A model generated the notes under the pieces. It was not told the DNA's origin. It saw only the letters and a list, made by a program, of their open reading frames with translations, and did not search any database. The translations under genes were made by a program, and so were the position numbers. Source: Rothia santali (lineage in GTDB: Bacteria > Actinomycetota > Actinomycetes > Actinomycetales > Micrococcaceae). Taken from it: DNA of 64,000 nucleotides. This document shows positions 26,124-49,394 of this stretch, piece by piece (the first letter of the stretch is position 1; each line of letters opens with the position of its first letter). Where the stretch lies: positions 1-64,000 of the forward strand of contig NZ_JANAFB010000012.1 of NCBI RefSeq assembly GCF_024199905.1. Direction: 5' to 3'.

Positions 26124-26505
26124 GTGGCATATACCGAGGTCGAGGTCTTCATCCCGGCGGGCGGCGCGGAGGACGCGGAGCGCGAGGAGTTCCTCGACGC
26201 CGCGGCCGGGCTCGCCCAGGAGGGCTACCCCATCACCGTGTACGTGCGCGGGGAGGACGAGTGGGCCTTCGAGCAGTGCGAGCACGTCGCGGACATGATC
26301 GCCGCATCCGGCGACGTCGTCCTGCCCATCACGCTGCTGGGCCCCCGGATCGTGGCCTCGTGGATGTACCCCACCGGCGAGCAGATGCAGCGCTTCGCGA
26401 AGGCCGCCGAGCCGAAGCGGCAGGACCCGCGGTTCTCCGCGGCGGCCGCGGCGGGCGGGGTTCGCCGCCCATCCCAGACCTTTCGACGAGGAAAGCGCAG
26501 CAGAC
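26124..26505 (+). CDS. Thioredoxin-like, ArsD-related small protein with unresolved C-terminus
   Basis: A GTG at 26124, with GGGAGG eight bases upstream, opens a protein of about 110 confident residues: VEVFIPAGGAEDAEREEFLD near the start and DVVLPITLLGPRIVASWMYP towards the end. This resembles the ArsD fold (metallochaperone of arsenite pumps), where the second block is conserved, but the paired cysteines near the N-terminus of ArsD are absent. The frame then stays open through the whole next gene, so the true stop is not in frame. An indel near 26430-26500 in GC-only sequence is likely. The end given here is only the start of the next gene. Confidence 0.5.
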
Positions 26506-27429
26506 ATGGCAGAGACCACCGAGAACAAGCTCATCATCGGAACCGCCCCCGACTCCTGGGGCGTGTGGTTCCCCGAGGACGAGAAGCAGACCCCCTGGCA
26601 GCGCTTCCTCGACGAGGTCGCGGAGGCCGGGTACCGGTGGATCGAGCTGGGGCCCTACGGCTACCTGCCGACCGACCCGCAGACCCTCGCGCGGGAGCTG
26701 AAGGCGCGCGACCTCAGGGTCAGCGCGGGCACCGTGTTCACCGCGTTCCACCGCGGGCACGAGCAGTGGGACCTCGCGTGGGAGCCGGCCCGGAAGGTCG
26801 CCGAGCTGACCGCCGCGATGGACGGGCAGCACGTCGTCGTGATCCCCGCCCAGTGGCGCGACGACAAGACCGGCCGGGAGATGGAGCCGCGCACGCTCGA
26901 GGAGCGGCAGTGGGAGGACCTGGCCCGCGGCCACGACCGGCTGGGGAAGGTCCTGCAGGAGGAGTTCGGGCTGTACCAGCAGTTCCACTCCCACGCGGAC
27001 ACCCACGTGGAGACCATGGAGCAGATCGAGCGGTTCCTCGCCGCGACCGACCCGAAGTACACGACGCTGTGCCTGGACACCGGGCACGCTGAGTTCGGCG
27101 GCGCGGACTCGGTCACGCTGATCGAGCGGTACCCGGAGCGGATCGGCTACCTGCACCTCAAGCAGATCGACCCCGACGTGCTCGCCGAGGTCCGCAGGCA
27201 CGACTGGGACTTCGGCCGGGCCACGGCCGAGGGCGTGACCATCGAGCCGCCGCACGGGCTGCCGGACCTGCGCCTGGTCATCGAGGCCGCCGAGAAGCTG
27301 AACCGCCCGCTGTTCGGCATCGTCGAGCAGGACATGTACCCGGTCAGCGACTTCGACGTGCCCCTGCCCATCGCCAGCCGCACCCGCAAGCACCTGCTCG
27401 GCTGCGGGACCCGGACCGTCCCGGCCTGA
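26506..27429 (+). CDS. iolE: IolE-like inosose dehydratase / sugar isomerase (xylose isomerase-like TIM barrel)
   Basis: A 307-residue TIM-barrel protein of the AP-endonuclease/xylose-isomerase superfamily. It opens with the IolE-type GTAPDSWGVWFPEDEK and has the metal-site segments HSHADTHVETMEQIE, LCLDTGHAEFGG and YLHLKQIDPDV. In inositol catabolism IolE dehydrates 2-keto-myo-inositol. An inosose isomerase (IolI-like) role cannot be excluded. The start has no strong Shine-Dalgarno. It opens the iol unit followed by iolG- and iolH-type genes. Confidence 0.75.
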   Translation: MAETTENKLIIGTAPDSWGVWFPEDEKQTPWQRFLDEVAEAGYRWIELGPYGYLPTDPQTLARELKARDLRVSAGTVFTAFHRGHEQWDLAWEPARKVAELTAAMDGQHVVVIPAQWRDDKTGREMEPRTLEERQWEDLARGHDRLGKVLQEEFGLYQQFHSHADTHVETMEQIERFLAATDPKYTTLCLDTGHAEFGGADSVTLIERYPERIGYLHLKQIDPDVLAEVRRHDWDFGRATAEGVTIEPPHGLPDLRLVIEAAEKLNRPLFGIVEQDMYPVSDFDVPLPIASRTRKHLLGCGTRTVPA

Positions 27430-27541
27430 CCGGGGCCGACGCCGCCCCCTCCGGATCGGCCGGGGGCCGACGCCGCCCCGCCCGGACGGCCTCCACCGTC
27501 CCCCCACCCGACGCACACCCTTCGAAAGGAAACCCACCCCC

Positions 27542-28519
27542 ATGACCCAGGAACTGCGCATCGCCGTCGTCGGAGCCGGCCGCATGGGCTCCGACCACAT
27601 CGAGCGGATCCACCGCCGCATGGAGCGGGCCCGCATCACCGCGATCGTCGACATCGACGAGGCCAAGGCCCGCGCCGCGATCGACGGCATCGAGGGCGCG
27701 AAGGTCTACACCGACTTCACCGAGGCCATCGACTCGGGCGAGGTCGACGCCGTGCTGGTCGCGACCCCCGGATTCCTGCACGAGCAGGTCCTCCTCCCGA
27801 CCCTGACCAAGGGCCTGCCGATCCTGTGCGAGAAGCCGCTGACCCCCGACTCCGAGTCTGCCTGGCGCATCGTGCAGGCCGAGGTGGCCGCGGGCCGCCG
27901 GCTCGTCCAGGTGGGCTTCATGCGCCGCTTCGACGCCGGCTACCGGGCCGTGCGCGCCGCGGTCGAGTCGGGCGAGCACGGCGAGCTGCTGGCCCTCGAC
28001 TGCGAGCACATCAATCCCGAGGTCCCGGACGCCTACACCGGCCGCAACCTCATCGACGACACCGTGGTCCACGAGTTCGACGGCATGCGCTTCCTGAGCG
28101 GCGAGGAGATCGTCTCGGTGCGGGTCGCCGGCGGCAAGCGCTCGAAGCACGCCAAGGAGGGCCTGATGGACCCGGCCCAGATCCAGATGGAGACCGAGTC
28201 CGGCGTGCGGATCACGGTCAACACCCACGTCACCTCGCAGTACGGCTACGCGGTGACGACCCGCGCGAGCTTCGAGGGCGCCCACGTGCAGGAGGGGCTC
28301 GACGTCGTGACCCCCGGCTTCGAGGAGCGCTTCCTGGACGCCTACGACGCCGAGGTCCAGGAGTGGATCGACGCGAGCCTCGCGGGCGAGCTGGAGGGAC
28401 CGGACGCGTGGGACGGCTACGCCGCCGCCGCGTGCTGCGAGGCCGGGCTGAAGGCCGTGGACGACCTCGGCCAGAGCTACCCCGTGACCCTGCAGGAGAA
28501 GCCCGAGCTGTACCGCTAG
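27542..28519 (+). CDS. iolG: Inositol 2-dehydrogenase (Gfo/Idh/MocA family)
   Basis: A 325-residue NAD(P)-dependent dehydrogenase with the Rossmann start RIAVVGAGRMGSDHIERIHRR, the EKPLTPD motif that supplies the catalytic lysine, and the IolG-typical VDAVLVATPGFLHEQVLLPTL and FDGMRFLSGEEI blocks. It oxidises myo-inositol to 2-keto-myo-inositol, the first step of the pathway. A GAAAGGAAAC-type Shine-Dalgarno precedes the ATG. It follows the IolE-like gene by 112 bases and precedes the IolH-like gene. Confidence 0.88.
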   Translation: MTQELRIAVVGAGRMGSDHIERIHRRMERARITAIVDIDEAKARAAIDGIEGAKVYTDFTEAIDSGEVDAVLVATPGFLHEQVLLPTLTKGLPILCEKPLTPDSESAWRIVQAEVAAGRRLVQVGFMRRFDAGYRAVRAAVESGEHGELLALDCEHINPEVPDAYTGRNLIDDTVVHEFDGMRFLSGEEIVSVRVAGGKRSKHAKEGLMDPAQIQMETESGVRITVNTHVTSQYGYAVTTRASFEGAHVQEGLDVVTPGFEERFLDAYDAEVQEWIDASLAGELEGPDAWDGYAAAACCEAGLKAVDDLGQSYPVTLQEKPELYR

Positions 28520-28530
28520 GGCCCGACGCC

Positions 28531-28551
28531 GCCGGCCCCGCGCGGGCCGGC
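28531..28551 (+). terminator. Hairpin between the iolG- and iolH-type genes
   Basis: GCCGGCCC (28531-28538) pairs with GGGCCGGC (28544-28551) across a five-base loop, starting 12 bases after the iolG stop. The next gene continues in the same direction after 99 bases, so this may be a weak terminator or a processing site. Confidence 0.45.
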
Positions 28552-28617
28552 GCCGGCGGCTTCGCCCCGCCCCTCGTGCCCACCCCTCGACCGACCATCC
28601 CCTGACGAGGAGACCCC

Positions 28618-29496
28618 GTGAAGATCGCCCTGGACCCCACCCCCTTCCACCGCACCCACTCCCTGCTGGAGTTCCCCCGCCTGGTCAAGGACCTCGGGTA
28701 CGACTACTTCCAAATGACCCCGCACCCGGACTTCATCCCGTTCTTCAACCACCCCAAGGCCGACGACGACCTGGTGGCCGACCTGGGGAAGGCCTGCAAG
28801 GACGCCGGCGTCGAGATCGCCTCGATCCTGCCCGTGCTGCGCTGGTCCTCCCCGGACCCCGACGCCCGCGAGGCGGCCGTGCGCTCCTGGAAGCGCGCGA
28901 TCCAGATCGCCGTGGACCTCGGCGTCGAGCAGATGAACACGGAGTTCTCCGGCCGGCCCGAGCTCGCCGAGGAGTCGGAGCGCGCCTTCTACCGCTCGAT
29001 GGAGGAGCTGCTGCCGATCATCGAGCGCGAGGGCATCAACGTCGCGATCGACCCGCACCCGGACGACTTCGTGGAGAACGGCCTGGAGGCCTGGCGGGTC
29101 ATCCGCGGGGCGAACTCGAAGAACCTCGGGTTCGCGTACGTCGCCTGCCACGCCTTCCACATGCAGGAGGCGCCGCTGGACATCATGCGGGCCGCGGGCG
29201 ACCGCATCCGCGTCACGCACGTGGCCGACACGATGGACCACCACCGCTCCAACGGCCTGCGCTACATCACCAACCCGCCCGGCAACCCGGTGCGCGTGCA
29301 CCAGCACCTCAAGGTGGGCGACGGCGACGTCGACTGGGACGAGTACTTCGGCGGCCTGGCCGAGATCGGGTTCCTGGACTCGCCCGACACGGTGATGGTC
29401 TCCAGCGTCTTCGGCGAGAACGAGAACGCCGAGGAGGTCTCCCGGTACCAGCTGCGGACCATGCGCGAGCGGGTCGAGGCGGCCCGGAAGGGCTGA
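28618..29496 (+). CDS. iolH: IolH-like sugar phosphate isomerase/epimerase
   Basis: A 292-residue protein of the AP-endonuclease-like TIM-barrel family. It begins KIALDPTPFHRTHSLLEFPRL, close to the IolH start in bacilli and corynebacteria, and has IDPHPDDFVENG and RVTHVADTMDHHRSNG as metal-binding segments. Its role in the inositol pathway is not settled even in model organisms. The GTG start at 28618 has a GAGGAGACC Shine-Dalgarno. It ends the forward iol gene set in this window. Confidence 0.78.
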   Translation: MKIALDPTPFHRTHSLLEFPRLVKDLGYDYFQMTPHPDFIPFFNHPKADDDLVADLGKACKDAGVEIASILPVLRWSSPDPDAREAAVRSWKRAIQIAVDLGVEQMNTEFSGRPELAEESERAFYRSMEELLPIIEREGINVAIDPHPDDFVENGLEAWRVIRGANSKNLGFAYVACHAFHMQEAPLDIMRAAGDRIRVTHVADTMDHHRSNGLRYITNPPGNPVRVHQHLKVGDGDVDWDEYFGGLAEIGFLDSPDTVMVSSVFGENENAEEVSRYQLRTMRERVEAARKG

Positions 29497-29715
29497 GCCA
29501 CGCGGGGGCGGTGCCTCTCACCGGCCCGGGGGCGCCGTTTCTCCTCGCGCCCCGGGGACCCGCCTCTCCGGGTGCCCGTTCGCTCCTGGCGCTCGCGGGC
29601 CCCGGCCCCTGGTGCCCCCGCCGGACCTGTGCTTGGCTGAGACCACGCATACAGCGCCGTCCCGCGCCGCCCTCCCGGGCGGATGCCGGGCGGCGCGTCG
29701 AGGAGGGGAGGCCCC

Positions 29716-29910
29716 GTGGCTTCGAACGAGAACCGAGAGCAGCGGCCCGCCGAGGGTCGGGAGCCGAGCGAGGCGGAGTCGAGGATCGGCATGTCCGCCG
29801 AGGAGGAGCAGCGCGAGGTGCGGCGCCAGTCCGAGAGCACCGAACCCGCCGACGAGGGCGTGGGCGCCCTGACCGACGACGAGGGCCGCGAGCCCGACAC
29901 CGCGAACTAG
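29716..29910 (+). CDS. Small acidic protein of unknown function
   Basis: A 64-residue, Glu/Asp-rich hydrophilic protein beginning VASNENREQRPAEGREPSEA and ending in DDEGREPDTAN. The GTG at 29716 has a strong AGGAGGGG Shine-Dalgarno, and the gene is followed by a bidirectional hairpin, both of which support a real gene. The composition resembles small disordered stress proteins of actinobacteria. No family was recognised. Confidence 0.55.
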   Translation: MASNENREQRPAEGREPSEAESRIGMSAEEEQREVRRQSESTEPADEGVGALTDDEGREPDTAN

Positions 29911-29921
29911 GCCCCCCGGGG

Positions 29922-29953
29922 AGCCCGGGCCGTCCATGCCGGAGGCCCGGGCT
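29922..29953. terminator. Bidirectional hairpin terminator
   Basis: AGCCCGGGCC (29922-29931) pairs with GGCCCGGGCT (29944-29953) across a 12-base loop. It sits between the stop of the small plus-strand gene and the stop of the minus-strand flavoprotein gene, so it can serve both. Confidence 0.7.
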
Positions 29954-29962
29954 GCCGCGCGC

Positions 29963-31153
29963 TCAGGCGGAGCCGACCCGCCCCTTCAGGATCCCGTGCC
30001 AGTACAGCTGCGGCTGCATGAACAGGTCGTAGGCGTAGGTCCACGGCCGCGACCGCTGCAGGTCGGCGAGGCCGAAGGACGGCGTCGGACGCCCCTGGCG
30101 GTCGAACTCGGCCAGGAGCAGGCTCGTCCCCGAGGTGGCGATCGGCGCGACCGAGTAGCCGTCGTACCGCGCGAAGGCCCGGCCCAGGCGCTGCGCGGCG
30201 ATGTTGCGCGCCAGGATCGGCACCTGCTTCCGCAGCCCGCCGCCCGAGCGCTGGGCCCCGAGCTCCGCCGCGTCGCCCATGGCCCACACCCGCGGGTGCT
30301 CGGGGTGCCGGAGGGTCTCCGGGTCCACGGCCGCGAACCCGCCCGGCAGCCCGCTCAGCCCCGCCGCGCCGATCCACTCCGGCGCCCGGTGCCGCGGGGT
30401 CAGGTGCAGCGCGTCGAACGGGTACAGGACGGCCCCGGCCGGGGTCTCCGCCCGGACCACCTGCCCTTCGGGGTCGACGCCGCCCACCCGCGCCGAGGTC
30501 ACCACCCGCACGCCGTAGCGCTCGGCCGCCGCGCGCAGCTGCTCGTCGGGGCGGTCCAGGGCAAACATGCGCCGGTCCTCCACGAGGACCGTGACGTCCA
30601 GGTCGCCGAGGACCCCGCGTCGTCTCCAGAGGTCGCACAGGATGAACAGGGGCTTGTAGCCGACGCCGCCGCACGGCACCGTCTCGGTCGCCACCGTGAA
30701 CACCGCGCGGCCGCTCGTGAGCGAGGACATCAGCGTCCACGTCTTCGCGGCCAGCTCGGGGAGGTAGTTGGTCGAGGCCGCCGAGCCCACGACGGCGTCG
30801 CCGGTCCCGGGGGCCGCGTCCCAGTCGGGGCTCGAGCCGGGGCAGATGACGAGGTCGTTGCCGGAGATCTCGCGCCCCCGGTCGGTCACGACGGCGCGCC
30901 GCTCCGGGTCCACCGCGACGACGGCCTCGGCGTACCGGTGGCACCGCGAGGGCATGGCGCGGCCCTGGGGACGCTGGGCGTGGGCGAGGTCGGCCCGCCC
31001 GGCCCCCACGTAGGAGAGCAGCGGGCGATAGGTGTGGGTCTTGGCGGGGTCCACCACCGCGACGTCGCGGCAGCCCAGGCGGCGCAGGTGGGCCGCGAGC
31101 GAGATCCCCGCGTTGCCGCCGCCGACGATCAGGACGTCGTGATGGGTGTTCAT
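29963..31153 (-). CDS. FAD-dependent NAD(P)/disulphide oxidoreductase, sulfide:quinone reductase-like
   Basis: A 396-residue flavoprotein with the FAD-binding start DVLIVGGGNAGISLAAHLRR and a second nucleotide-region LVICPGSSPDWDA. The TVPCGGVGYKPLF segment, with Cys161, is the redox loop seen in sulfide:quinone reductases. The C-terminal partner cysteine of classic enzymes is not present, so a type II SQR-like or another quinone-linked enzyme is more likely than a canonical SQR. It lies antisense to the iol genes and has no evident relation to inositol. Confidence 0.75.
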   Translation of the reverse strand: MNTHHDVLIVGGGNAGISLAAHLRRLGCRDVAVVDPAKTHTYRPLLSYVGAGRADLAHAQRPQGRAMPSRCHRYAEAVVAVDPERRAVVTDRGREISGNDLVICPGSSPDWDAAPGTGDAVVGSAASTNYLPELAAKTWTLMSSLTSGRAVFTVATETVPCGGVGYKPLFILCDLWRRRGVLGDLDVTVLVEDRRMFALDRPDEQLRAAAERYGVRVVTSARVGGVDPEGQVVRAETPAGAVLYPFDALHLTPRHRAPEWIGAAGLSGLPGGFAAVDPETLRHPEHPRVWAMGDAAELGAQRSGGGLRKQVPILARNIAAQRLGRAFARYDGYSVAPIATSGTSLLLAEFDRQGRPTPSFGLADLQRSRPWTYAYDLFMQPQLYWHGILKGRVGSA

Positions 31154-31356
31154 CCTCGGGCTCTCCTTCGCTCCGGCCGGAGGCGCCCGGCTGCGGTCGG
31201 CGAGACCGACCCGTCTCCCAGTCTGGTATGGATCCGGGCCCGTGCATAGTCCGGCCGCGGCGCCCGGGCCGCGATGCCGCGGGCGCCGCGGTGGGGCACC
31301 GGCGGCACCACGCCCGCTTCACCGGCATCGCCACGGCCGCTTCGCCGGCGCCGGGC

Positions 31357-32397
31357 TCAGCGCAGCGGCTCGACCTGCTCTACCTGGCCCGTCTCCGCCG
31401 AGCGCCGGGCGGCCAGCGCGACCTCGAAGGCGTGCAGCCCCGAGGAGGGCGGGCTCGCGTTGCGCCCCTGGCCGGTGGCCAGGTCCACGAACTCCTGCAT
31501 CTCGCGGACGAAGGTCGGGGCGAAGCGGTCCTGGTAGCCCTCGTAGACCGCCTCCGGGGCGTGGATCCCGCCCTCGGGGTCGATCCGGGAGACCGCGACC
31601 CCGGCGGTCTCGCCGACCGAGTACGTGGCGCGGCTGCCGTGGACCACGGTGCGCACGTCCTGCCCGCTCGCGTTGCCGCGGATGCCGACCAGCGTCGCCA
31701 CGAGCCCCGAGGTGAAGTGCAGCATCGCGTGGGCCGTGTCGATCTGCCCCTGCTCCGCGTGCGCCCGGTCCTCCAGCGCGCCGCCCACGGCGTAGACGCG
31801 GTCCACCCGCTCGGAGACCAGCCAGGGGACGGCGTCGAAGTCGTGCATCATCAGGTCCAGCCACAGACCGCCCGAGTCCGCGAGGCCCGCGGCGTCGGCG
31901 ATCCGGCGGTCGGCGTTGACGGAGTGGACCGAGCGCAGGGTCCCGGCGCGCTCCGCTCCGAGCAGGCCCTTGAGCGTGCGGAACTCGGCGCCGTGGCGGC
32001 GGTGGAAGCCGACCATGACGCGCTCGTCGGCGCCGGCGGACTCGACCTCGCGCAGCAGCTCGAGGTAGTCGTCCGCGGTGATGGCCAGGGGCTTCTCGAC
32101 GAAGACGGGCAGTCCGCGCCGCACGGCCTCGGTGACCAGGCCCGGGTGCGTGCGCCCCGGGGTGGTGATCACGACGCCGTCGGTGACCTCGAGCGCGGCC
32201 TCCAGCTCGGTGGTGGTGCTCAGGTCCACCTCGGCGGCGGCCTCGGCCCCCGCCCGCTCGCGGACCGCCTCGGCCGAGGCCGCGAGCCGGCCGGGATCCC
32301 TCCCGACGAGCTCGACGTGCGTCAGCCCGGGCGTGGACAGCAGGTTCGCGGCGTGCATCCGGCCGATGCCTCCGGCGCCGACGACGGTGATCTTCAT
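31357..32397 (-). CDS. Gfo/Idh/MocA-family dehydrogenase, inositol cluster
   Basis: A 346-residue NAD(P)-dependent dehydrogenase, Rossmann start KITVVGAGGIGRMHAANLL, with VEKPLAITADDY containing the catalytic lysine and GFHRRHGAEFRTLKGLL as the substrate-side region. Its closest relatives by pattern act on inositols or related cyclitols and sugars. It lies 105 bases downstream of, and on the same strand as, the next dehydrogenase gene. The substrate is unproven. Confidence 0.8.
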   Translation of the reverse strand: MKITVVGAGGIGRMHAANLLSTPGLTHVELVGRDPGRLAASAEAVRERAGAEAAAEVDLSTTTELEAALEVTDGVVITTPGRTHPGLVTEAVRRGLPVFVEKPLAITADDYLELLREVESAGADERVMVGFHRRHGAEFRTLKGLLGAERAGTLRSVHSVNADRRIADAAGLADSGGLWLDLMMHDFDAVPWLVSERVDRVYAVGGALEDRAHAEQGQIDTAHAMLHFTSGLVATLVGIRGNASGQDVRTVVHGSRATYSVGETAGVAVSRIDPEGGIHAPEAVYEGYQDRFAPTFVREMQEFVDLATGQGRNASPPSSGLHAFEVALAARRSAETGQVEQVEPLR

Positions 32398-32502
32398 GGG
32401 ATTCCCTCCAGGGGGTGCTGGGCCGAGGGGTGCTCGGCGGGGTGTCCGTGGGTCCCACGCTAGCCCACGCGGCGACTCGCGGCGGGGGTCCTGTGGATGG
32501 CG

Positions 32503-33711
32503 TCAGCCGAGGCGGACCTCGGCGCCCCCCTGCTCCGCCGAGGCGGCGATCGCCTGGATGACCTCCAGCGTGTGCAGCCCGTCGGCGAAGCCGGCGCAGG
32601 GGTCCAGCCCGGTCTCGACGCCGGCCACCTGGCCCAGGAACGCTCGGGCCTGGATCGCGAAGTTGTCGTTGTAGTTGTAGCCGATGCCGGGGGCGTCCAT
32701 CGCGCACGAGTTCGCGTAGAGCGGGGTCTCGGGGTTGATGAGCACGCGGCGCTGGCCGCGGGTGTCGGCCGCCGCCTGGGCGTCGTCGTACATGAACTCC
32801 GCGGGCTTGGTGATGTCGAAGGAGGCCTGCGCCCGCGGGCCCACCAGGTGGTAGGTCTGCGAGTTGGGCGTGCCGAAGGCGACGCGGGAGATCGTGTAGG
32901 TGCCCACCGCGCCGTTGGCGAAGCTGCAGGTGAAGGTCAGGAAGTCCTCGTTCTCGACCGGCTCGACCTCGTCCGAGACCTCCACGTGCTGGTGGCCGAC
33001 GACGGCGCCCAGCGGCAGCGGCCGCTCCTTGGTGATGGTGTCCATGACGGCGCCGCGCACCGCGGTGATGGGGCCGTTGATCAGCTCGCCGGTGTCGATG
33101 ACGTGGGAGCCGAGGTCGCCCAGCGCGCCCGAGCCGGGGCCGCCCTTGTAGCGCCAGGACATCGGGGCGCGCTCGTCGCACGAGTAGTCGCACAGGTAGG
33201 TGCCGATGAAGTTGGTGACGGGGCCGAACTCGCCGCCCTCGACCTTGGCCCTGATCGCGTTCAGGGCGGGCATCCGGCGCACGGTGTAGCCCACCGAGGT
33301 GATCAGGGGGCGGCCCTGCGCGTCGGTCCTGCCGGCGTACTCGCGCTCGAGCTCGACCATGGCCTGGGCGTCCTCGAGGGTCCCCGCGAGCGGCTTCTCG
33401 CACAGCACGTGCTTGCCGGCCTCGAGCAGCCCGCGGGCGATGGACAGGTGCAGGGCGTTGCCGACGACGATGCTCACGGCGTCGATCTCCGGGTCCTCCG
33501 CGACCTGGCGCCAGTCCGAGTAGGTGCGCTCGAAGCCGTACCGCCGGGTCGCGTCCTCGCCGAGGGGGACGTTGGCGTCGGCGATCGCGGCGAGGCGGAT
33601 GCGGGGGAAGTCCGAATCGTAGATCGAACCCGCCTGGCGGTATCCGTAGGCGTGCGCGCGCCCGGCCATGCCGGCTCCGATGACGGCGACGGACAGTGGG
33701 GTCTCGGTCAA
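32503..33711 (-). CDS. Gfo/Idh/MocA-family dehydrogenase, inositol cluster
   Basis: A 402-residue dehydrogenase, longer than the other two minus-side family members. It starts SVAVIGAGMAGRAHAYGYRQAG and has HVLCEKPLAGTLEDAQAM and a GDLGSHVIDTGELINGPI block with the conserved His near the active site. A near-palindrome, TGTCAGGACA, lies 29 bases upstream of its start and resembles a site in front of the GntR gene (37,439), which suggests shared control with the inositol genes. Confidence 0.82.
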   Translation of the reverse strand: MTETPLSVAVIGAGMAGRAHAYGYRQAGSIYDSDFPRIRLAAIADANVPLGEDATRRYGFERTYSDWRQVAEDPEIDAVSIVVGNALHLSIARGLLEAGKHVLCEKPLAGTLEDAQAMVELEREYAGRTDAQGRPLITSVGYTVRRMPALNAIRAKVEGGEFGPVTNFIGTYLCDYSCDERAPMSWRYKGGPGSGALGDLGSHVIDTGELINGPITAVRGAVMDTITKERPLPLGAVVGHQHVEVSDEVEPVENEDFLTFTCSFANGAVGTYTISRVAFGTPNSQTYHLVGPRAQASFDITKPAEFMYDDAQAAADTRGQRRVLINPETPLYANSCAMDAPGIGYNYNDNFAIQARAFLGQVAGVETGLDPCAGFADGLHTLEVIQAIAASAEQGGAEVRLG

Positions 33712-33737
33712 TGGTCCTCCTCGAACTGAAATGACGG

Positions 33738-33754
33738 AATGTCAGGACAATTAT
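33738..33754 (-). promoter_or_regulatory. Candidate operator of the inositol-cluster GntR regulator (copy 1)
   Basis: On the plus strand the core is TGTCAGGACA (33740-33749) within AATGTCAGGACAATTAT. It is a near-palindrome of the form TGTCNNGACA and lies upstream of the minus-strand dehydrogenase gene. A second copy with the same AGGACA core and ATTAT flank is at 37437-37452. Confidence 0.5.
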
Positions 33755-33843
33755 CCCCATCGAGTGTGACCCAGGTCAATCAATGCGGGCGTGTCGGCCC
33801 GGCGAGGTGCCGCGGCGCGGGCGCCGGCGGGCAGGATGGGAGC

Positions 33844-34872
33844 ATGACGACGACGCAGCACCCCGACCGACCCCTGGCCATCGGACTGCTCGGCGCCTCC
33901 CGGATCGCCGAGCTGGCCGTCACCGAGGCGACCCGGGCGACCGGAGACCTCCGCTACTCCGTGGCGGCCCGCGACCCCGGGCGGGCCGCCGCCTTCGCCC
34001 GCGAGCACGGCTACGAGCGCTCCCACCCCGACTACGCCGCACTGATCGCGGATCCCGCGGTGGACCTGGTCTACATCGGCCTGCCCAACGGGCTGCACGC
34101 CGAGTGGGCGGCCCGCGCGCTGGAGGCGGGCCGCGACGTCCTGGTGGAGAAGCCCGTCGCGGCCAACCTGGAGGAGTTCGACCGGCTCGCCGCATACGTG
34201 CGGGAGCCGGGCCCGCGCCTCTGGGAGGCGTTCCACTACGCCTGGCATCCGGTCATGCGCCGCGTGCTGGAGATCGTCGGCTCCGGGGAGCTGGGGCCGC
34301 TCCGCGAGGTCGAGATCAGGATGCTCATGCAGGAGCCCGGGCCGGAGGACCCGCGCTGGAGCTTCGACCTCGCCGGGGGAGCGCTCATGGACGTCGGCTG
34401 CTACGCGCTGCACGCAGCGGTGCTGCTGGGCGAGCGGCTGGGCCTCGACCTGGAGCTTCAGGGCGCGCGCGGCGTCGGCTCCCCGGCGGATCCCCGGGTG
34501 GACGCGGAGGTCGAGGCGGAGCTGCGCCTAGGCGGCGTCCCCGTGGGGATCCGCGCGAGCATGGTGGCGCCCGAGTGGGACTTCAGCCTCCGGGTCGCGG
34601 GGGAGCGGGGCGAGGTCCTCGCGCCCTCCTACGTGCTGCCGGGGGAGGACGACGCCGTCGTCGTGACCGGCGGCGCCGGGGACCGGACGGAGCGCCCGGG
34701 CGGTGGGTCCAGCTACGCGCACCAGCTGCGGGGGATCGGCGGGATGCTGCGACGCGGGGACGGGTGCGGCGAGGGCCTGGCCCGCTCGCGGCGGGTCATG
34801 GGGCTGATCGACGGGGTGTACCGGGCCGCCGGCTTCCCCCTGCGCCCGGGGCGCCTCGGGACCTCTTCGTGA
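33844..34872 (+). CDS. Gfo/Idh/MocA-family oxidoreductase
   Basis: A 342-residue dehydrogenase. It opens LAIGLLGASRIAELAVTEATRA, with VEKPVAANLEEFDRL as the catalytic-lysine motif and WEAFHYAWHPVMRRVLEIV matching the dimeric trans-1,2-dihydrobenzenediol/xylose dehydrogenase branch. It differs clearly from the other family members here and is divergent from them on the opposite strand. The substrate is unknown. The ATG at 33844 is the only good start in frame. Confidence 0.78.
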   Translation: MTTTQHPDRPLAIGLLGASRIAELAVTEATRATGDLRYSVAARDPGRAAAFAREHGYERSHPDYAALIADPAVDLVYIGLPNGLHAEWAARALEAGRDVLVEKPVAANLEEFDRLAAYVREPGPRLWEAFHYAWHPVMRRVLEIVGSGELGPLREVEIRMLMQEPGPEDPRWSFDLAGGALMDVGCYALHAAVLLGERLGLDLELQGARGVGSPADPRVDAEVEAELRLGGVPVGIRASMVAPEWDFSLRVAGERGEVLAPSYVLPGEDDAVVVTGGAGDRTERPGGGSSYAHQLRGIGGMLRRGDGCGEGLARSRRVMGLIDGVYRAAGFPLRPGRLGTSS

Positions 34873-34896
34873 GGCGGCGGCTCCCCGGCGCGGCGG

Positions 34897-35745
34897 TCAG
34901 ACCAGCAGGTAGACCGACCCGAGCAGGGTGAGCACGATGATCGCGCGGTCGAAGACCCGTTGCCGGATGCGCCCGGCGAGCCAGCGCCCCGCGAAGGCCC
35001 CCGCGACGACCGCAGGCACGAGGACGGCGGCGAGCACGAGCGTGTGGGCGTTGACGAGCCCGAGGCCGATCGAGACCGGCAGCTTGAGCAGGTTCATGGT
35101 CGCGAAGAACCACGCCGCCGTGCCGAGGAAGGCGTGGACCGGGAATCGCGCGGAGAGGAAGTACATGGACATCACCGGGCCGCCGGCGTTGGCCACCATG
35201 GTGGTGAAGCCGCCCAGCGAGCCGTAGCCCGCCGAGCTCAGCCGGGAGGCGGTGCGCACCGAGGCGGCGCCCGGCCCCGCGGACGCACCGGGTCCCGCCC
35301 CGCGCACGTCGGGTCTTGTTCCCCCCGCACCCGGGGCTCCGCCCGCACCCGGGGTCGCGCCCGCGGCCCGCTCCCGGCGCGGCCGGCGCTGCCACAGCGT
35401 GAAGGCCACCAGCATCACCAGCAGCACGCCGATGACGCGCCGGACCCAGGCGTCGTCGGCCAGCGCCAGGAACAGCGCGCCCACCGCGAGCCCGGCCAGC
35501 ACCGAGGGGATCAGGCGCAGTAGCGTCGGCCAGTGCGCGTGCCGCCGGTAGGCCCACATCGCGAAGGCGTCCCCCACCAGCAGCAGGAGCAGCAGCGCGC
35601 CCGTCGACTCCCGTGCGGGCAGAATCGCGGCGAAGGCGGCGACGGAAAGGGTGTTGACTCCTGGCAGGACCGTCTTGGAGACCCCCACCAGCAGCGCGGC
35701 CACCGCGAGCAGCGCCCACGCCCACGGCGCGACGTCGGTCAGCAT
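34897..35745 (-). CDS. TSUP family exporter (TauE/SafE-like)
   Basis: A 282-residue membrane protein with about eight helices. It has VAALLVGVSKTVLPGVNTLSV at the N-terminus and GGFTTMVANAGGPVMSMYF after a long cytoplasmic loop. The loop (about residues 120-165) is Gly/Pro/Ala-rich and not seen at such length in many relatives. TSUP proteins export anions, often sulfonates, sulfite or organic acids. The start at 35745 is only six bases after the iolB stop, so it is in one unit with iolB and the GntR gene. Confidence 0.82.
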   Translation of the reverse strand: MLTDVAPWAWALLAVAALLVGVSKTVLPGVNTLSVAAFAAILPARESTGALLLLLLVGDAFAMWAYRRHAHWPTLLRLIPSVLAGLAVGALFLALADDAWVRRVIGVLLVMLVAFTLWQRRPRRERAAGATPGAGGAPGAGGTRPDVRGAGPGASAGPGAASVRTASRLSSAGYGSLGGFTTMVANAGGPVMSMYFLSARFPVHAFLGTAAWFFATMNLLKLPVSIGLGLVNAHTLVLAAVLVPAVVAGAFAGRWLAGRIRQRVFDRAIIVLTLLGSVYLLV

Positions 35746-35751
35746 GGCGCG

Positions 35752-36639
35752 CTAGCCGCCGAAGGGCAGGCGGGCGTCGATCTCCTTCTCGTCCCACTGC
35801 TGGCGCACCCAGCCGTGGTGCGGGTCATCGCTGATGAGCCACTTGCGGACGGGGCCGGGGCCGGCCATGACGTTGAGGTAGTACAGGTCGTAGCCGGGAG
35901 GGGCCATGGCCGGGCCGTGCCAGCCGTAGGGGACCAGGACGACGTCGCCCGTGCGGACCTCGGCGTTGACGTCGATCTCGCGCTCGTCGGAGGCGTAGAC
36001 GCGCTGGTAGCCGATGGCGTCCGCGGCCTCGGCGGGGGCGTCGGGGGTGGTCCGGGTCTCGAAGTAGTAGATCTCCTCGAGGCTCGTCTCCCCCTCCTTC
36101 TCCTCGTCGTGCTTGTGCGGCGGGTAGGAGGACCAGTTCCCGGCGGGCGTGAGGACCTCGCACACGATGAAGCGGTCGGCCTCGAGGGTGTCGGGCGTGC
36201 CGAAGTTGCGGACCTCGCGCGAGCAGTTGCCCGCGCCGCGCAGCTCCAGCGGGGCCTCGTCCTTGCGGATCAGGCGCACGGGGTGCTCCCGGCGCGCGGG
36301 TGCGCTCGCGATGGCCACGCGCACGCCCTCCGCCCCGGAGAGCTCCAGGGCGCGCCCGATGCCGGTGTAGAGCACGTCCGTGGGGCCGTGGAAGACCGAG
36401 GCGCGGCCCGCGAGCTCGTAGGGCTCGCCGTCGACGACGGCGGTGACGTCACCGCTCAGGGGGATCACGATCCGCTCCTCGCCGGCCGCGGCGAGGCGCA
36501 AGGGCTCGCCGGTCAGCGTCGCGGTGCGCAGGCCGGTGTGCTCCCAGCCCTCGACCGCGAGCGAGGAGTCGTGTCCGCCCAGGGAGATGTCCCAGGGGCC
36601 GTCGGCGGCGGTGCCTGCGGGGTAGACCCAGTCGGTCAT
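35752..36639 (-). CDS. iolB: 5-deoxy-glucuronate isomerase
   Basis: A 295-residue two-cupin enzyme of the IolB family. The diagnostic PHKHDEEKEGETSLEEIYYFE block carries the metal-binding histidines and glutamates, and WHGPAMAPPGYDLYYLNVMAGP near the C-terminus supplies the second set. It converts 5-deoxy-glucuronate to 5-dehydro-2-deoxy-gluconate in inositol catabolism. It lies 23 bases after the GntR stop and is followed at once by the TSUP gene. The ATG at 36639 has AAGGAACC just upstream. Confidence 0.92.
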   Translation of the reverse strand: MTDWVYPAGTAADGPWDISLGGHDSSLAVEGWEHTGLRTATLTGEPLRLAAAGEERIVIPLSGDVTAVVDGEPYELAGRASVFHGPTDVLYTGIGRALELSGAEGVRVAIASAPARREHPVRLIRKDEAPLELRGAGNCSREVRNFGTPDTLEADRFIVCEVLTPAGNWSSYPPHKHDEEKEGETSLEEIYYFETRTTPDAPAEAADAIGYQRVYASDEREIDVNAEVRTGDVVLVPYGWHGPAMAPPGYDLYYLNVMAGPGPVRKWLISDDPHHGWVRQQWDEKEIDARLPFGG

Positions 36640-36662
36640 GGATGGTTCCTTTCGTCGTCGGG

Positions 36663-37400
36663 TCAGGCGGAGAGCGTCAGCTCGAAGGAGTAGGAGTCGG
36701 CGCGGTAGACGTGGCGGCCGGTCTCGACGCGGCGCCCGACGTCGTCGGTCGCGGTGCGCGCCATGGTCACCAGGGCCGCGCCCTGCGAGGTGTGCAGCAG
36801 GTCGGCCTGCGCCTTGGTGGCCACCGCGGCGCCGATCTTCTGCGTGGCCAGGCGGAAGTTGACCCCCGCCTCGCGGAGGAGGGCGTAGAGCCCGTGCTCC
36901 CGGAGGGTCTGGGCGCTGAGCTCCGTGATCCCGGCGGGGACCCAGTTCTCCATGATCGCCAAGGGGGTCTCGCCGCGGCTGCGCAGGCGCTTGAAGTAGT
37001 AGACGGGGGCGCCCGGCTCGATGTTCAGCTTCTCCGCGACCTCCCGGCTCGCGGACTCCTCCGAGAAGGCGAGCACCTCGGTCAGGGGGCGGGCCCGGTC
37101 CTCGGTGAGGTCGTCGTAGAGCGAGGTCAGACGGACGGGGCGGCGCACCTCGGAGGCCACGACCTGGGTCCCGACGCCGCGCTTGCGCACCAGCAGGCCC
37201 GAGCGGACGAGCTCGTCCATGGCCTTGCGCACGGTCGGGCGGGAGAGGTGGAGCTCCTTGGCGAGCGCGAGCTCGTTGTTCAGCATCGTCCCCGGGGGCA
37301 GGCCGCCCTCCGAGATGGCCGCCTCGATCCCGTGCACCAGCTGGTGGTAGAGCGGCACGGGCGAGGACCGGTCGATGATGATGTCTAGAGAGGCTGCCAT
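36663..37400 (-). CDS. GntR-family regulator with UTRA domain, inositol-cluster regulator
   Basis: A 245-residue regulator. The N-terminal 75 residues are a winged helix (LHLSRPTVRKAMDELVRSGLLVRKRG), and the rest is a UTRA ligand domain, with PVYYFKRLRSRGETPLAIMENWVP typical of the FadR/HutC branch. It is first in an operon with iolB and the TSUP gene and divergent from the iolT-type transporter. It probably represses inositol genes until an inositol intermediate binds, which is inferred from its position. A near-palindromic AGGACA site lies in the divergent region. Confidence 0.85.
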   Translation of the reverse strand: MAASLDIIIDRSSPVPLYHQLVHGIEAAISEGGLPPGTMLNNELALAKELHLSRPTVRKAMDELVRSGLLVRKRGVGTQVVASEVRRPVRLTSLYDDLTEDRARPLTEVLAFSEESASREVAEKLNIEPGAPVYYFKRLRSRGETPLAIMENWVPAGITELSAQTLREHGLYALLREAGVNFRLATQKIGAAVATKAQADLLHTSQGAALVTMARTATDDVGRRVETGRHVYRADSYSFELTLSA

Positions 37401-37436
37401 GATCTGCTCCCGGAACTCCTCGGTGCCATTTGTCTC

Positions 37437-37452
37437 ATTGTAAGGACATTAT
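37437..37452. promoter_or_regulatory. Candidate operator between the GntR gene and the transporter (copy 2)
   Basis: ATTGTAAGGACATTAT contains TGTAAGGACA (37439-37448), one base off the near-palindrome TGTCNNGACA at 33740. Its location between the divergent GntR and transporter genes suits an autoregulated operator. Confidence 0.5.
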
Positions 37453-37588
37453 GGGTCAGCCTAGCAGAGTGGCCCATCTCTCCGCTCGCATAGCCTCGGA
37501 AAGTGTTTCAATGGAAGGATTCCCCTCCCGGCGCCCGCTGCCCCGCAGCGGGCGCCGGGTTTCTTGAGTTCTGAGGAGAGATCCGAGC

Positions 37589-39064
37589 ATGTCTCGACCA
37601 TCCGTAGGGGCCGGTACGCCGGTCGCGGAGAAGCCCGCCCCCGCCACGAGCGGCGGTGCGCCGTCCGGGGACGGCCACGGGAAGTCCATGAACCGCAGGA
37701 TGCGCTTCGTCGCGACCATCCTGACCTTCGGCGGGCTGCTGTTCGGCTACGACACCGGCGTCGTCAACGGCGCGCTGCCGTCCATGGCCGAGGACTTCCA
37801 GATGAGCCAGCAGTACGAGGGGTTCATCACCTCGGCGCTGCAGTTCGGCGCCATCTTCGGCGCGGTGTTCGGCGGGCGCCTCTCGGACCGCTACGGGCGC
37901 CACCGGGTCATGGTGACCGTGGCGGTCCTGTTCACGCTGGGCTCCCTCGGCTCGGTCCTCTCGCCCGAGTGGTGGGTCCTGGCGCTGTGCCGCGTGGTCC
38001 TGGGGCTCGCCGTGGGCGGGGCCTCGGTGACCATCCCGGTCTACCTCGCCGAGCTCGCGCCGTCGCACCTGCGCGGGCGGGTGGTCTCGCAGAACGAGTT
38101 CATGGTCGTCTTCGGCCAGTTCCTCGCCTTCGCGTTCAACGCCGGGATCACCGGCGTCATGGACGCCGAGCACGCCAACACCTGGCGGTGGATGCTCTCC
38201 GTGTGCCTGCTGCCGGCGATCCTGCTGTGGGCGGGGCTGACGGTCGTGCCCGAGTCCCCGCGCTGGCTGGCGCGCTGGGGCCGGGTCGACGCGATGCTGA
38301 AGGTCCTCCGGGAGATCCGCGAGCAGGCGTACAGCAAGCGCGAGGGGGAGGAGGTCGAGCGCCTCGCGGCCCAGGACGAGAAGGCCTCCCAGGGGACGCT
38401 CTCCGAGCTGTTCTCCGTGCGGTGGATGCGGCGCATCCTCTACATCGGCGTCGGGATGGCGGTCATCAACCAGATCTCGGGCATCAACGTCGTGCAGTAC
38501 TACGGCGTCTCGATCCTCACCGACGCCGGGTTCGCCGGCAACGCCGCCTTCGTGGTCAACCTGCTGATCGGGCTGGCCGGCGTCGTGGGCGTGGGGATCG
38601 CGCTGGGGATCATCCAGCGCGTGCGGCGCAAGACGATGCTCACCGTGGGGCTGGTGGCCACGATCCTCACGCTCGGCCTGCTGGCCTCGACGGCCGTGTT
38701 CGTCGCGGACGAGAACCCGCTGAAGAAGTGGGTCATCCTCGGCTCGATCGTGGTCTTCGTGGGCTTCATGCAGTGCTGCATCGGCACGATGACCTGGCTG
38801 TTCATGTCGGAGATCTACCCGCTGAAGGTGCGCGGCGTCGCGATGGGCATCAGCACCGGGGTGCAGTGGACCATGAACTTCCTCGTGGCGCTGCTCTTCC
38901 CGATGCTCTCCGCGGCGCTGGGGCTCGGCGCGACCATCGGCATCTTCGTCGTGCTGCAGGTCCTTGCGCTGATCTGGGTGCGTGTCAAGGTCCCCGAGAC
39001 CAAGGACAAGACGCTCGAGGAGATCGAGGACGCGTTCAAGGAGCCCGACGCCGCGCGAGCCTGA
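37589..39064 (+). CDS. iolT: MFS sugar/inositol transporter (IolT-like)
   Basis: A 491-residue major facilitator of the sugar porter family with 12 helices. The signatures are GGRLSDRYGRHRVMVTVAVL, RVVLGLAVGGASVTIPVYL, PESPRWLARWGRVDAM, and QISGINVVQYYGVSIL near the middle. The N-terminus is a 35-residue disordered leader. It is divergent from the GntR gene and in context most likely imports myo-inositol by proton symport. It has its own strong terminator (39111-39145). Confidence 0.85.
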   Translation: MSRPSVGAGTPVAEKPAPATSGGAPSGDGHGKSMNRRMRFVATILTFGGLLFGYDTGVVNGALPSMAEDFQMSQQYEGFITSALQFGAIFGAVFGGRLSDRYGRHRVMVTVAVLFTLGSLGSVLSPEWWVLALCRVVLGLAVGGASVTIPVYLAELAPSHLRGRVVSQNEFMVVFGQFLAFAFNAGITGVMDAEHANTWRWMLSVCLLPAILLWAGLTVVPESPRWLARWGRVDAMLKVLREIREQAYSKREGEEVERLAAQDEKASQGTLSELFSVRWMRRILYIGVGMAVINQISGINVVQYYGVSILTDAGFAGNAAFVVNLLIGLAGVVGVGIALGIIQRVRRKTMLTVGLVATILTLGLLASTAVFVADENPLKKWVILGSIVVFVGFMQCCIGTMTWLFMSEIYPLKVRGVAMGISTGVQWTMNFLVALLFPMLSAALGLGATIGIFVVLQVLALIWVRVKVPETKDKTLEEIEDAFKEPDAARA

Positions 39065-48467: not shown

Positions 48468-49394
48468 ATGTTGACCGTGATTGGCGAGGCCCTCATCGAT
48501 ATCGTCCGTGGCGAGGGCGTCAGCCCCCGTGCCCACCCGGGCGGGAGCCCCATGAACGTGGCGGTCGGCCTCTCGCGGCTGGGCCACCGCACGCTCTTCG
48601 TGGGCCGCTACGGCCGGGACGAGCACGGGGCCGCGCTCGAGGCGCACCTGCGGGAGGCCGGCGTCGAGCTGCCGGTGGGGCCCGACGACGCCCCCACCTC
48701 GGTCGCGGAGGCCACCATGGACTCCCGCGGCTCCATGTCCTACGACTTCCAGCTGGACTGGAACCTCGAGGCCGCGGCGGACCGGCTCGCGGACATCCTC
48801 GCCGACACCGAGCTGCTGCACGTCGGCTCCATCGGCGCGATGCTCGAGCCGGGCGCCTCCACGGTGCTGGAGGCCGTGCGCCAGGCAGCCCCGCACGCCC
48901 TGATCTCCTACGACCCCAACTGCCGCCCCAGCATCGTCCCGGACTCCTCGGAGGCCCGGGGCTGGGCGGAGTCGGTGGTCGAGCACGCCGACGTCGTGAA
49001 GGCCTCGGACGAGGACCTGCTGTGGCTGTACCCGGGCCGGACCATCGAGGAGTCGGCGCAGGCGTGGCTCGACGCCGGGGCGAGCCTCGTCGTCGTGACC
49101 CGCGGCGAGCTGGGCCCCTGGGCGGTGAGCCGGGGCACCGGGCCGGAGGGCGTGCGCGTCCCGGCCCACCGGGTCGAGGTGGCCGACACCGTGGGGGCCG
49201 GGGACTCCCTCATGGCGGCCCTGATCTCCGCGCTGGTGGACCGCGGCATCTCCGGGGCCGGCGCGGCGGAGCGCGTGGCCGCCCTCGGCGAGGTGGAGGT
49301 CGCGGAGATCCTCGCCTACGCTGCCAAGGCCGCGGGCATCACCGTCTCCCGCGCGGGCGCCAACCCGCCCACCCGGGAGGAGCTCGCCGCCTGA
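48468..49394 (+). CDS. PfkB-family carbohydrate kinase (fructokinase-like)
   Basis: A 308-residue ribokinase-fold kinase. It has the PfkB start LTVIGEALIDIVRGEGVSPRAHPGGSPMNVA and the catalytic VADTVGAGDSLMAAL. The substrate appears to be a ketohexose such as fructose, by resemblance to fructokinases. A role as IolC cannot be excluded but the pattern does not favour it. The ATG at 48468 has GGGGGC a few bases upstream, and the gene is divergent from gap. Confidence 0.82.
   Translation: MLTVIGEALIDIVRGEGVSPRAHPGGSPMNVAVGLSRLGHRTLFVGRYGRDEHGAALEAHLREAGVELPVGPDDAPTSVAEATMDSRGSMSYDFQLDWNLEAAADRLADILADTELLHVGSIGAMLEPGASTVLEAVRQAAPHALISYDPNCRPSIVPDSSEARGWAESVVEHADVVKASDEDLLWLYPGRTIEESAQAWLDAGASLVVVTRGELGPWAVSRGTGPEGVRVPAHRVEVADTVGAGDSLMAALISALVDRGISGAGAAERVAALGEVEVAEILAYAAKAAGITVSRAGANPPTREELAA

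Follow-up and report, generated by a model that had tools for sequence, protein, structure and literature searches.

Does the inositol locus of Rothia santali described here encode only part of a catabolic pathway, a pathway for some other cyclitol, or a common pathway whose remaining steps lie elsewhere in the genome? The stretch analyzed, hereafter the window, comprises the initial 64,000 nucleotides of contig C3 (87,849 bases), part of a draft genome of 3.3 Mb and 84 contigs. Between positions 26506 and 39064 it carries inositol catabolism (iol) genes together with four dehydrogenases of the Gfo/Idh/MocA family, denoted G1 to G4. The evidence argues strongly for the distal part of an ordinary cluster for inositol catabolism, of a kind widespread among Micrococcaceae, in a Rothia-like species. 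This applies to the pathway assignment; the activities and physiology given below are predictions. The apparent incompleteness of the cluster stems from contig C3, where an arsD-like gene is joined to iolE at about 26460. Families were assigned using curated NCBIfam cut-offs and Pfam matches, and loci were compared by tblastn. The following inositol genes were found in the window:

26506-27429, plus strand: IolE-like TIM barrel, inosose dehydratase (TIGR04379, 140.7 bits, cut-off 290; solved IolE relatives 3cny and 9zmu)
27542-28519, plus strand: G1, IolG type, myo-/D-chiro-inositol dehydrogenase (3mz0/3nt2, 214.5 bits; NF052679, 280.3 bits, cut-off 540)
28618-29496, plus strand: IolH/IolI-like TIM barrel, possibly an inosose isomerase/epimerase (PF01261, 162.1 bits; IolI 1i60, 31.4 bits)
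35752-36639, minus strand: IolB, 5-deoxy-glucuronate isomerase (TIGR04378, 269.6 bits, cut-off 205)
37589-39064, plus strand: sugar porter of the major facilitator superfamily, likely the inositol importer (PF00083, 346.1 bits; TIGR00879, 334.7 bits, cut-off 237.8)

For the eight named proteins, the lowest family E-values range from about 1e-18 to 1e-103, and chance matches are no concern. A preliminary description of the window had listed iolE-, iolG-, iolH- and iolB-like genes and three further Gfo/Idh/MocA dehydrogenases, all of which have family matches at these loci. Its IolT-type transporter is a sugar porter over the TIGR00879 cut-off, whereas no inositol-specific transporter model was found among the matches listed (best 25 of 45). 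The window copy of IolB is the sole TIGR04378 match in the genome. The IolE-like protein falls short of its curated cut-off, and no place in the genome reaches the required 290 bits; among 14 control genomes, TIGR04379 gave any match in 7 and exceeded its cut-off in only 2. Since both the IolE-like protein and G1 score below their cut-offs, synteny and shared residues count as much as score in naming them.

The residues of G1 are those of a known enzyme group. According to an excerpt of PMC9603128, inositol dehydrogenases are marked by the catalytic triad K97/D172/H176 and by Asp or Glu at position 35 for NAD+ binding; in motif V, the sequence YGY indicates activity on myo- and D-chiro-inositol (group (i)), whereas another residue in its place, in most cases a basic one, indicates myo- and scyllo-inositol. 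G1 carries K98 (in EKP), D173 and H177 (in D-x-x-x-H), the NAD-binding Asp, and YGY. Among 17 matches to G1 orthologs, in which at least two genomes are counted twice, 15 have YGY and 2 have FGY. By these residues, G1 is predicted to be an NAD+-dependent dehydrogenase of the myo/D-chiro-inositol type.

A profile search yielded no match over cut-off for iolC, iolD or iolA within the 64-kb window. The iolC model has a single match in the window, a sugar-kinase-like stretch at 48540-49241, which was rejected as iolC (99.2 bits versus a cut-off of 300). The iolC and iolD models matched in all 14 control genomes and exceeded their cut-offs in 3 each, and the iolA model matched in 13 of the 14 and exceeded its cut-off in 5; because matches under the cut-off occur in nearly all control genomes, only those over it were counted. 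On this basis, the genome-wide profile search identified all three genes on contig C6: iolA at C6:307-1734 (703.9 bits, cut-off 448.5), iolD at C6:1777-3678 (805.5 bits, cut-off 715) and iolC at C6:4618-5553 (358.1 bits, cut-off 300). The run C6:307-5553 consists of iolA, iolD, a Cgl0159-like putative aldolase gene and iolC; the Cgl0159-like protein encoded between iolC and iolD (PF22649, 392.8 bits) probably performs the aldolase step. An organism devoid of iolC, iolD and iolA is therefore rejected, as all three are over cut-off on C6. The preliminary description was right that the three genes are missing from the window and that these steps must be encoded elsewhere; their absence is due to the join in contig C3, and its other explanation, different cyclitols as substrates, is not needed. 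The genome as a whole contains a full set of myo-inositol genes, with iolB, iolC, iolD and iolA assigned over cut-off, and iolG and iolE by scores under cut-off, synteny and residues.

The arrangement expected for these genes is seen in related loci, represented by the best 80 of 276 confirmed iolE matches with flanks of up to 10 kb, several of which are ended by contig ends. The closest named relative found through iolE, in a search that may omit records from the window's own genome, is Rothia halotolerans JCM 31975 (93% protein identity). Its locus, L036, is a single run of iolC, the aldolase gene, iolD, iolA, iolE, iolG and iolH with 92-95% protein identity, and beyond iolH it contains G2, G3, TauE, iolB, GntR and the porter. 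Counting the best non-overlapping match at E <= 1e-25, we found G1 in 79 of the 80 loci, iolD in 76, iolH in 75, iolC and the aldolase gene in 74 each, and iolA in 73; the porter was matched in 63, GntR in 32, TauE in 9 and G2 in 1. G3 was matched in 24, namely 7 loci of Rothia or Kocuria at 67-92% identity and 17 loci at 43-49%, and G4 had no listed match in the 80 loci. The gene order deviates in a few loci, e.g., L042, L043, L093 and L106, and L041 contains no iolC, iolD or iolA inside its flanks.

An excerpt of PMC9430895 defines a cluster by at least three of iolB, iolC, iolD and iolE, with members within 10 kb. As assembled, the window holds only iolE and iolB of these four, with iolC and iolD on C6, whereas L036 has all four in one stretch; we applied NCBIfam models and tblastn instead of the hidden Markov models of that study. 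In the same excerpt, 1,024 genomes have just three of the core genes; in 810 of these, the fourth lies more than 10 kb off or on another contig, and assembly errors are listed among the possible causes of a lacking gene.

Where the cluster is interrupted, two features meet:

26091 to about 26464-26498, plus strand: truncated ArsD-like gene (PF06953, 29.2 bits, cut-off 27)
26459-26465, no strand: junction between arsD-like sequence on the left and the iolE leader on the right (limits of homology to R. halotolerans loci)

The ArsD-like open frame continues out of frame into iolE. On the right, the sequence resembles the R. halotolerans iol locus from 26465 onward, 41 bases 5' of iolE; on the left, from 6.2 kb to 26458, the window tracks the R. 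halotolerans contig G045:C8 with gaps and ends inside the ArsD-like gene. The R. halotolerans sequence 3' of this break (about 1.6 of 2.0 kb matched) resumes right where contig C65 begins; by eye, C65 opens with the last codons of the arsD-like gene. C6 and the R. halotolerans sequence part at about C6:220, shortly past iolA, and the C6 end consists of poly-G/C runs and 142 bases (C6:1-142) that are 97% identical to C28:554-695; no G or C run of 8 or more occurs in L036. In G003, a genome of two contigs, the arsD-like and iolE matches lie on the same contig at about 2.75 Mb and 0.31 Mb, respectively. Because two contig ends (C65 and C6) meet at one junction, and C6 ends in poly-G/C, we favor a mis-joined contig, and it is fairly likely that the assembly wrongly connected iolE to the arsD-like gene in C3 at about 26460. 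As side observations, one strand of C6:1-142 reads, by eye, as Gly/Ser/Tyr-rich repeats, and the ArsD-like copy of R. halotolerans has a cysteine-rich C-terminus.

A real recent rearrangement, in which an inversion or translocation involving the arsD-like gene and the gap between iolA and iolE split a working cluster into two loci cooperating in trans, seems unlikely but is the most probable of the alternatives. It would account for a window that tracks G045:C8 with gaps from 6.2 to 26.46 kb and for the arsD-like gene being cut at the junction, as a true rearrangement would likewise truncate this gene; moreover, there is no long homopolymer at 26460. No repeat was found in a search across 26300-26600, hence no repeat-mediated cause was identified. 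On the other hand, this one junction has a contig end on each side, that of C65 and that of C6, the C6 end carries poly-G/C and a C28 fragment where a reciprocal exchange would be expected to leave the arsD 3' end, and poly-G/C sequence like that of the C6 end also interrupts a second IolE-like gene on contig C21.

In addition to the missing homopolymer and the truncation expected from either cause, several observations weigh against an ordinary inositol cluster: (i) neither the IolE-like protein (140.7 versus 290 bits) nor G1 (280.3 versus 540 bits) comes near its curated cut-off; (ii) the porter is 87% identical in R. halotolerans and only 37-50% identical in the other matching loci, so that its tie to inositol is loose; (iii) iolB lies within the flanks of only 36 of the 80 loci; (iv) the nearest ortholog of G1, in L036, has FGY instead of YGY; and (v) the core order here (iolC, iolD, iolE, with iolB on the opposite strand) differs from the two most frequent orders, DBCE and CBDE, which account for 65% and 28% of the actinobacterial positive species, respectively, in the excerpt of PMC9430895.

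An ordinary inositol pathway can be proposed from these genes. The steps of the iol pathway follow each other in a standard order. In the proposed model, the sugar porter would import inositol, which G1 would oxidize to inosose with NAD+; IolE would dehydrate the inosose, IolD (encoded on C6) would open the ring, and IolB would isomerize the product. IolC (C6) would then phosphorylate it, the Cgl0159-like protein (C6) would probably perform the aldol cleavage, and IolA (C6) would yield acetyl-CoA, whereas IolH may interconvert inososes. The gene roles are those given for inositol catabolism in the excerpt of PMC9430895.

The remaining three dehydrogenases raise the question of whether the substrate range is wider:

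31357-32397, minus strand: G2, Gfo/Idh/MocA, IolG-like (TIGR04380, 204.7 bits, cut-off 355)
32503-33711, minus strand: G3, Gfo/Idh/MocA, levoglucosan/scyllo-inositol dehydrogenase type (NF052479, 229.1 bits, cut-off 650)
33739-34872, plus strand: G4, Gfo/Idh/MocA, with the true start probably about 100 bases downstream

Pairwise identity among G1-G4 is 26-31% over the aligning parts. G2 has the K-D-H triad, as do the two orthologs compared with it, those of L036 and L120. In place of the NAD-binding Asp or Glu, it has Gly-Arg-Asp at 35-37, common to both orthologs, and its motif V is SGQ, with neither YGY nor a basic residue. This cofactor register was chosen by eye. In the HMMER alignment, it is the Asp two positions further along that is paired, and a MAFFT alignment of six dehydrogenases was judged to misplace the cofactor region of G2. 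The NADP+-type IolW has a small residue followed by Arg (PMC9603128, excerpt). Because the Gly-Arg of G2 resembles this pair, G2 may be a reductase, and an inosose reductase of the NADP(H) type is the likelier assignment. Full-length matches to G2 were found in 7 of the 35 genus genomes, its own included.

The solved relative closest to G3 is 6a3f (207.8 bits; 'putative dehydrogenase'), which we take to be levoglucosan dehydrogenase; 5ya8 scores 163.3 bits. The latter is the scyllo-inositol dehydrogenase of Paracoccus laeviglucosivorans, whose residue roles are described in an excerpt of PMC5969746 that gives K106, D191 and H195, plus R178 and H318, as markers of the subfamily. By eye, the K-D-H triad is conserved in G3 along with the Arg178 and Tyr163 positions, and G3 differs at the Tyr135, Glu165 and His318 positions, with Ile at the last. 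G3 probably adds a second entry for a cyclitol or an anhydro-sugar. G4 was rejected as an inositol dehydrogenase, as it has DVGCY where the triad needs D-x-x-x-H, with Tyr for the catalytic His. Its best solved relatives are a sugar 3-ketoreductase (100.5 bits) and other oxidoreductases. Among the 35 genus genomes, it is full-length only in its own, and 7 others have partial matches at 34-39% identity (E <= 1e-20). G4 is probably not an inositol enzyme.

A second iolD gene is located at C21:23924-25825 (750 bits). Around it, C21:19038-29870 (L117:9038-19870) forms a second cyclitol-type set that includes a LacI regulator, an aldehyde dehydrogenase, a levoglucosan-type dehydrogenase, a 2-hydroxyacid dehydrogenase, an IolG-like dehydrogenase just under cut-off (341.3 versus 355 bits) and the second IolE-like gene, interrupted by poly-G/C. 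A set similar to that of C21 lies close to TauE-iolB-GntR in G003.

Taken together, G1 as the oxidizing IolG, G2 as the NADP(H)-type inosose reductase and G3 as the anhydro-sugar/scyllo-type enzyme could all feed one IolE-IolD trunk, so that with the C21 iolD set several cyclitols would be interconverted and used, and the TauE/SafE permease linked to iolB would move some anion of the pathway; we put this forward as a speculative and rather unlikely extension. It is improbable that the locus serves another cyclitol or an anhydro- or keto-sugar instead of myo-inositol, the four dehydrogenases providing alternative points of entry. Such a role would agree with the second iolD set on C21 and with G3, which matches NF052479 and is nearest to the presumed levoglucosan dehydrogenase 6a3f. 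Paralogs with overlapping inositol specificities are also described for Corynebacterium glutamicum in the excerpt of PMC9603128. However, iolB, iolC, iolD and iolA, all over cut-off, occur in one and the same genome together with an IolE-like protein and an IolG-type enzyme bearing the myo/D-chiro marker. The suggestion of the preliminary description that the three extra dehydrogenases widen the range to scyllo- or other inositols fits them unequally, being plausible for G3, with G2 predicted to be NADP-type and G4 without the catalytic His; that all three are such inositol dehydrogenases is highly improbable, because, although all are family members, G2 and G3 keep K, D and H, and several paralogs are active in C. 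glutamicum, G4 has DVGCY and is full-length in 1 of 35 genomes, G2 lacks the NAD-binding Asp and YGY, and only 4 of 7 C. glutamicum paralogs enabled growth on inositols (PMC9603128, excerpt).

Three further genes lie among those of the inositol cluster, and were left out of the preliminary description, whose named genes are real:

36663-37400, minus strand: GntR/UTRA regulator, likely the regulator of the cluster (PF07702, 108.8 bits; PF00392, 54.2 bits)
34897-35745, minus strand: TauE/SafE permease (PF01925, 104.7 bits)
29963-31153, minus strand: flavoprotein like type III sulfide:quinone reductase (111.3 bits, cut-off 525)

The TauE/SafE gene is 6 bases from iolB, and its 9 matching loci are all titled Rothia or Kocuria. 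The sulfide:quinone-reductase-like gene, between iolH and G2, has no listed match in the 80 related loci, and its product is probably not part of the inositol pathway. Five plus-strand open frames (e.g., 29936-31249 and 31228-32463) were rejected as genes, as they have no family match; the genes actually encoded there run along the minus strand. The segment 39065-39280 contains a run of 10 C, and the gap 3' of the porter is longer than in R. halotolerans; this is possibly another assembly blemish.

These results caution that a gap in a pathway, seen in a window of a draft genome, can arise from the way contigs were joined. Far under their curated cut-offs, the IolE-like and IolG-type proteins could escape automatic annotation, and for the four paralogous dehydrogenases there are now predictions of substrate and cofactor that can be tested. 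No paper on this cluster was found among the matches listed in the open-licence literature on Rothia/inositol/iolE or Arthrobacter/inositol catabolism/iolD.

Comparison with known systems places the locus closest to those of R. halotolerans JCM 31975 and of Kocuria, Arthrobacter and Pseudarthrobacter, which have the same genes, in the same order where contiguous; IolE, G1 and IolH are 93-94% identical at the protein level to those of R. halotolerans. In contrast to these clusters, the one described here is cut between iolA and iolE and contains G4 and the sulfide:quinone-reductase-like gene as extras. The iol1/iol2 clusters of C. glutamicum, with seven putative inositol dehydrogenases, likewise include several Gfo/Idh/MocA paralogs, only some of which act as inositol dehydrogenases (PMC9603128, excerpt). 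G1 scores 214.5 bits with Bacillus subtilis IolG and 72.1 bits with OxiD of C. glutamicum (3euw), and is thus nearer to the former. Unlike the C. glutamicum system, the present one has in G3 a protein closest to a levoglucosan-type dehydrogenase. The structures 3nt2, which is B. subtilis IolG (PMC5969746, excerpt), and 3mz0 have the same sequence; this enzyme and G1 have in common the catalytic K, D and H, the NAD Asp and YGY, whereas G1 reaches only 280.3 of the 540 bits required by NF052679. Finally, as read by eye, the P. laeviglucosivorans enzyme 5ya8 shares with G3 the triad and the Arg178 and Tyr163 residues, and differs from it at the Tyr135, Glu165 and His318 positions.

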